Shown piece by piece: positions 2,835 through 3,360 of a stretch of DNA of 6,166 bases. How positions within the stretch are numbered: position 1 is the stretch's first letter; each line of letters opens with the position of its first letter. Position numbers and translations under genes: made by a program. Source of the stretch: Candidatus Peregrinibacteria bacterium (GTDB lineage: Bacteria > Patescibacteriota > Gracilibacteria > UBA1369 > LOWO2-01-FULL-3); the NCBI GenBank assembly GCA_016214225.1, contig JACROX010000032.1, forward strand, positions 778 through 6,943, in the 5' to 3' direction. The notes below the pieces were generated by a model, which did no database searches, was not told where the DNA came from, and saw nothing but the letters and a program-made list of their open reading frames with translations.

Positions 2835-3262
2835 TTTTTTCTTATTTAATTTTGGGTCACTTGCTTGGGGACTTCATTCTTCAGCCGGCAAAGCTTGTTG
2901 AATGGAAAATGCGGAGCAAAAAGGGGATTTTTGTTCACGCGTTAATTCATTTTATAACGAATCTCGTTATATTTTCCCCGCTTATTTACAACGGATACAC
3001 GGCAATGATACCAATATCTTTCGGTGTAAGTTTTATTCACTTTTGGATTGACAGTGCGAAAATAAGCTACGATTTAAGACACGACAATAAAGTAACTCCT
3101 TTTGTTCTGGATCAATTATTGCATCTTGTTGTTATTATCATGGCGTATGCGGTTTCTTTAAAATACGCTTTCCAAATACCAAATACGGATTTCTTCAGAT
3201 TTTACGCAAATTTTGTCATTATAAATTTCATGTCATTGATAATATTCGCGAGCATGTTTTAG
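2831..3262 (+). CDS. DUF3307-like integral membrane protein, C-terminus probably truncated
   Basis: A 143-residue hydrophobic protein with about four membrane segments (roughly 2-18, 36-53, 57-76, 95-113, with a fifth hydrophobic stretch at 127-143). Family-type motifs are GHLLGDFILQ (9-18), HALIH (36-40), FIHFWID (68-74) and VLDQLLH (92-98), which match my recollection of DUF3307, a family of unknown function. The conserved His/Asp pattern near the membrane could suggest a metal or catalytic site, but this is not established. The start ATG overlaps the stop of the upstream cNMP-binding gene (ATGA), so the two are probably translationally coupled. No separate promoter was seen. The protein stops at SLIIFASMF in the middle of a hydrophobic segment, exactly where a dnaX-like frame begins (3235), so I suspect the natural C-terminus has been replaced or cut off. 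Confidence 0.8.
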   Translation: MIFSYLILGHLLGDFILQPAKLVEWKMRSKKGIFVHALIHFITNLVIFSPLIYNGYTAMIPISFGVSFIHFWIDSAKISYDLRHDNKVTPFVLDQLLHLVVIIMAYAVSLKYAFQIPNTDFFRFYANFVIINFMSLIIFASMF

Positions 3263-3360
3263 AGAGCGTCCAAGTGACTGCTGGGCATGGCCGCTATCGT
3301 ATCTTTATCATCGACGAAGTACCCATGCTATCGACCGCGGCTTTTAACGCCATGCTCAAA
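3235..3360 (+). pseudogene. dnaX: Fragment of dnaX (DNA polymerase III gamma/tau), no start or end
   Basis: About 42 codons in the frame starting ATT 3235 read IDNIREHVLESVQ, then GHGRYRIFIIDEVPMLSTAA and FNAMLK. This is the Walker B region of the DnaX clamp-loader ATPase (typically IDxIRE...YKVYIIDEVHMLSTAAFNALLKTLEEPP), with Pro in place of the usual His after DEV. Upstream of 3235 the frame (FCHYKFHV) is not DnaX-like, and after codon 3360 it becomes DVRNV and stops at 3378, where TLEEPP should follow. It has no start codon and no P-loop, so it is not functional. G+C is 53 of 100 for 3262-3361, against 15 of 60 just before (3181-3240) and 38 of 100 just after (3362-3461). It lies across the 3' ends of the DUF3307-like gene and of the convergent membrane-protein gene, damaging both. 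It could be a recombination scar or a metagenome assembly chimera. Confidence 0.8.

Follow-up and report, generated by a model that had tools for sequence, protein, structure and literature searches.

The window (the whole stretch of DNA analysed here, 6,166 nucleotides; G000:C16:778-6943) belongs to a draft genome of 795 kb that is distributed over 121 contigs and is 83.9% complete. Its features are collected in Table 1. A DUF3307 gene and a gene for a membrane protein converge on a short piece that codes for part of DnaX. The membrane protein has no Pfam match and is membrane-like by sequence; many of its homologues bear PF25231, and the 13 that carry an organism name come from Candidatus Peregrinibacteria (six), Candidatus Gracilibacteria (three), Nitrospirota/Nitrospirae (two), Patescibacteria (one) and a "bacterium" (one). 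The genome therefore probably belongs to the Peregrinibacteria/Gracilibacteria group.

Table 1. Genes and junctions in the window (positions counted from its first nucleotide).
Feature	Position	Strand	Remarks
leuS		-	Pfam match
Protein without Pfam match	1616-2326	-	
Cyclic-nucleotide-binding protein	2385-2834		Pfam match
DUF3307 protein	2831-3262	+	143 aa, cut short
Left junction zone	3236-3253		18 bases readable both as DUF3307 family sequence (residues 136-141) and, in a different frame, as DnaX
DnaX-coding piece	3235-3360	+	42 codons, foreign; Pro replaces the Walker-B His at 3322-3324
Right junction	3360-3362		dnaX similarity up to 3360; native sequence consistent with P0019 from 3362
Membrane protein	3294-4289	-	331 aa in this reading, the last 22 (310-331) from antisense dnaX
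rpsO, pnp			Pfam matches, in the window

In frame 3235 the sequence reads IDNIREHVLESVQVTAGHGRYRIFIIDEVPMLSTAAFNAMLK, with 42 residues that belong to DnaX. An earlier note had described it as a DnaX segment of about 126 bp in a single plus-strand frame, lacking both a preceding P-loop and a following LEEPP, and this is borne out by matches to DNA polymerase III gamma/tau (TIGR02397, E-value 1.2e-12, residues 1-43) and to PRK09111 (4.4e-13). PF13177 also matches (3.5e-5, 24.3 bits), below the Pfam cut-off of 27. The similarity is confined to 3235-3360: no DnaX similarity and no Walker A part precede it, and neither LEEPP nor the remainder of the AAA+ domain follows. The Walker-B motif reads DEVP and not DExH, with Pro at residue 30 in place of a His that is present in all 54 sequences compared (the DnaX of the same genome, one viral contig, 48 genome loci and four proteins; a 55th row, L003, gave no alignment and was dropped). 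Such a replacement is what a read error would give, and it could also be a mark of decay.

The piece is richer in G+C than its surroundings, with 60 of 126 bases; the DUF3307 part before it has 139 of 404, and 3361-4289 has 341 of 929. Of all 100-base windows in the contig, 3.0% reach 53%. The direction of the contrast given in the earlier note thus stands, as does its 38% for the bases after the piece (38/100 in 3361-3460); the 25% before it is corrected to 31/100 (3135-3234), and the 53/100 within it to 52/100 (3261-3360).

The piece had also been placed as wedged between the two convergent genes, which does not describe the arrangement, as both reading frames run into it. The DUF3307 frame stops 9 nt past residue 141, and the last 22 codons of the membrane gene are dnaX read on the other strand; the conserved tail of the membrane protein is lost in the window. 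An uninterrupted form of this protein was found in another assembly. The protein, P0019 (316 residues; source "lgn", which we take to be the Logan assemblies), comes from an 11,414-bp contig, longer than the contig of the window (6,943 bp). It agrees with the window's membrane protein at all 297 aligned positions, the last of which is window residue 309, and then continues with the tail FTSEKQVSAREEYIEKKIQ, similar to the tails of six other aligned relatives (TSEKELSARD and the like). The truncated 143-residue DUF3307 protein (P0001) has two member sequences, for which a single contig is listed; at 6,943 bp it is as long as that of the window. No intact DUF3307 protein of this species was found among the 18 proteins of the protein search. 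The Logan protein set omits partial genes from non-human samples (PMC12424806), which may explain this absence. In the window the native DUF3307 end of this species is presumably missing too.

The same locus was compared in relatives. A DUF3307 match turned up in 23 of 41 genomes searched and a membrane-gene match in 28 of 30, both counts including the own genome, and loci were taken for the best matches only. With genomes retrieved twice counted once, this gave 27 relatives, of which 16 have the convergent pair, two have both genes in a non-convergent arrangement and nine have one gene only in the stretch. In the 16 convergent relatives the DUF3307 gene goes on for 36-177 nt beyond window residue 141 (9 nt in the window); for the membrane gene the distance beyond residue 309 is 63-195 nt (69 nt in the window). 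Thirteen of the 18 same-family relatives examined are among these 16. In the 13, the two points are 131-278 bp apart, against 109 bp in the window, and the ends of the genes, at their stops, range from an overlap of 44 bases to a gap of 3. Both neighbours lose their native 3' ends in the window, which the earlier note had missed, so the piece replaces native sequence and was not inserted between the genes. The loss at the DUF3307 end would not be striking by itself, because four of the 13 family members (L007, L008, L014 and L032) have short tails of 36-51 nt.

The 13 family loci (L005-L014, L030, L032 and L034) have the two genes as convergent neighbours whose ends overlap or abut, and their DUF3307 tails past residue 141 fall into a short (36-51 nt) and a long (150-177 nt) class. 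A DNA search with positions 3200-3400 in 89 genomes of the order returned 14 matching genomes including the own. Among the other 13, seven match the native side, from 3366-3370 on, and six match the dnaX part; the right junction is crossed in none of these 13, nor in any of the 88 genomes searched besides the own.

The dnaX gene of the genome itself is intact on contig C38 (499 codons) and is only 40% identical to the piece, so that an origin within the genome was rejected. This supports a foreign origin, as the earlier note had thought probable from the composition (another locus or organism), and the best relative found, at 79% amino acid identity, is the dnaX of Candidatus Uhrbacteria RIFCSPLOWO2_01_FULL_47_25 (L040; MGEK01000004.1). 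This gene emerged from a search of 84,980 species genomes in which 147 stretches matched a pattern and 48 of them encode a relative; the second-best by E-value is from another Candidatus Uhrbacteria (64%). Over the whole of 3235-3360, 99 of 126 nucleotides are identical to L040, the G+C content is the same (47.6%), and the likeness is lost outside on both sides. The Uhrbacteria gene has 371 codons with P-loop, DEVH and LEEPP, in contrast to the 42 residues with DEVP of the window. The piece matches another organism and its flanks match this genome, with the donor known approximately.

A padded protein search yielded four DnaX proteins among six candidates, at 71-79% identity, and these share with the piece and L040 the stretch AGHG. 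Neither the species genomes nor the padded search gave a near-identical donor, 79% being the best, and no closer donor than L040 was found in the three genomes searched of its family. The presence of the exact donor in the sample is accordingly a supposition; to judge from the sequences compared, the donor is most likely an unsampled Uhrbacteria-like bacterium. Other sources were considered and rejected: phage records gave partial matches only (five records, 75-81%), as did the plasmid collection (nine records, 77-82%, many of them megabase-sized), the viral contigs gave one relative at 50% and none with a second query, and E. coli gave no match. A third match in the own genome, on contig C81 (L003; 32%, E-value 0.016), resembles by eye a delta-prime protein (holB) and was likewise set aside; the gene is cut at the contig edge.

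The right edge of the piece is defined to a few bases. P0019 has Thr-Phe at the positions matching residues 309-310, so the native sequence can hold from 3362 and not at 3361, and no bases shared by the two sides are evident there from the extent of the dnaX similarity and the comparison with P0019. At the left edge, by contrast, some 18 bases fit by protein reading both the foreign dnaX and the native DUF3307 gene. None of 5429 six-residue reads sampled from the 48 dnaX loci (genes and flanks) fits DUF3307 residues 136-141 as well as the window does. The likeness is partly dnaX's own, because the L040 DNA reads SLITFVS in the DUF3307 frame. The left join is, from these readings, a spot of chance similarity between dnaX and DUF3307, which is to be expected equally from overlap-driven assembly and from microhomology recombination and does not separate the two. 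No repeat joining both ends of the piece is present among the pairs listed for 2800-4300.

Taken together, the tail of P0019, the occurrence of the truncated form on a single contig and the loss of both gene ends are best accounted for by a local assembly error, and we regard the dnaX piece as very probably chimeric. The choice between an assembly chimera and a real recombination scar, left open before, leans strongly to the chimera because P0019, on a longer contig, matches in 297 of 297 residues and then continues into an intact tail. The counterpoint is that the intact form is seen as a protein only and for the membrane gene only.

A short read of a foreign dnaX, probably Candidatus Uhrbacteria-like, would have been built into the contig and would now stand in place of the native ends of the two convergent genes. 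On the left, the assembler may have bridged the sequences through the overlap of about 18 bases at 3236-3253. On the right, the abrupt change from dnaX to native sequence resembles that in a ligation-chimeric library molecule. A simple de Bruijn misjoin would need a k-mer common to both sides, and this junction shows none, so that a chimeric molecule must be assumed in addition; a single foreign or ligation-chimeric read is perhaps the origin of the misjoin. The assembly would thus have passed over the native sequence between the two points, which are 131-278 bases apart in the 13 family members and 109 in the window.

Local assembly errors are a known problem in metagenome-assembled genomes, according to Chen et al. 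2020 (PMC7111523), and the present case agrees with them in that a short misplaced consensus breaks protein-coding genes. It differs in that chimeras of two organisms are described there as rare in the authors' experience. This rarity is a point against a chimera, small beside the evidence of P0019.

The main alternative is a real scar in one strain, in which about 130-280 native bases gave way, through illegitimate recombination, to a short patch of foreign DNA that had entered by natural transformation or another route; the microhomology would amount to about 18 bases on the left, with none evident on the right. The capture of foreign DNA by short-patch illegitimate recombination during natural transformation is a known kind of event, and the window shares with it a short stretch of foreign DNA that takes the place of native bases, together with the possible microhomology at one end. 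Reports on short-patch illegitimate recombination were not found in the literature searched.

A ComEC-family gene in the own genome (PF03772, E-value 3.3e-53; L100, G000:C32:6666-7448) makes DNA uptake possible, though it proves little, because PF03772 also matches 10 of 14 control genomes. The left junction does lie where the dnaX and DUF3307 DNA read alike to a degree reached by none of the 5429 sampled reads, the scar need not be lethal because the frames of both genes continue without a break until a stop close by, and P0019 may be a variant from a different strain. Against these points stand the intact allele, encoding an otherwise identical protein on another contig, the listing of the truncated DUF3307 form from one contig only, and a right junction that differs from transformation-linked events in its lack of evident microhomology. 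We therefore consider a real scar unlikely. It is correspondingly doubtful that illegitimate recombination, guided by microhomology, brought a 126-base dnaX splinter of another candidate-phyla bacterium into one Peregrinibacteria-like strain; if true, it would offer a direct glimpse of short-patch DNA exchange, with a very short capture, between two uncultured lineages.

It is very improbable that the piece is an old remnant, that is, a dnaX copy acquired by the lineage and decayed to 126 bases. The Pro that replaces the otherwise invariant His could be such decay, but the 42 codons are otherwise unbroken, and no match across the right junction came from the order's 88 further genomes. In addition, 17 of the 27 nucleotide differences to L040 are at third positions and 12 of the 21 changed codons are synonymous, which points to selection until recently and thus against an old remnant. 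A functional element between the genes (a terminator, a small protein, or a segment with an antisense or regulatory role) is scarcely credible. All that speaks for it is an open frame of 47 codons; against it, the piece has neither P-loop nor Walker-B His, the window has no Rfam match at the gathering thresholds, the conserved tail of the membrane gene is lost, and P0019 suggests that other assemblies of the species lack the piece.

As an assembly chimera, the piece matters for curation only. Two of the contig's predicted proteins are then likely to be wrong, namely the 143-residue DUF3307 protein and the membrane protein, whose tail would be false, and such splinters can be mistaken for real events in scans for gene transfer.

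Apart from this locus, the window contains a long hairpin between rpsO and pnp (4660-4780). Its minimum free energy is -43.3 kcal/mol, against -23.0 ± 3.15 for 200 shuffled sequences (z = -6.4). With the whole window searched at gathering thresholds, no Rfam family matched the hairpin; for pnp it could serve as a site of processing or of autoregulation.
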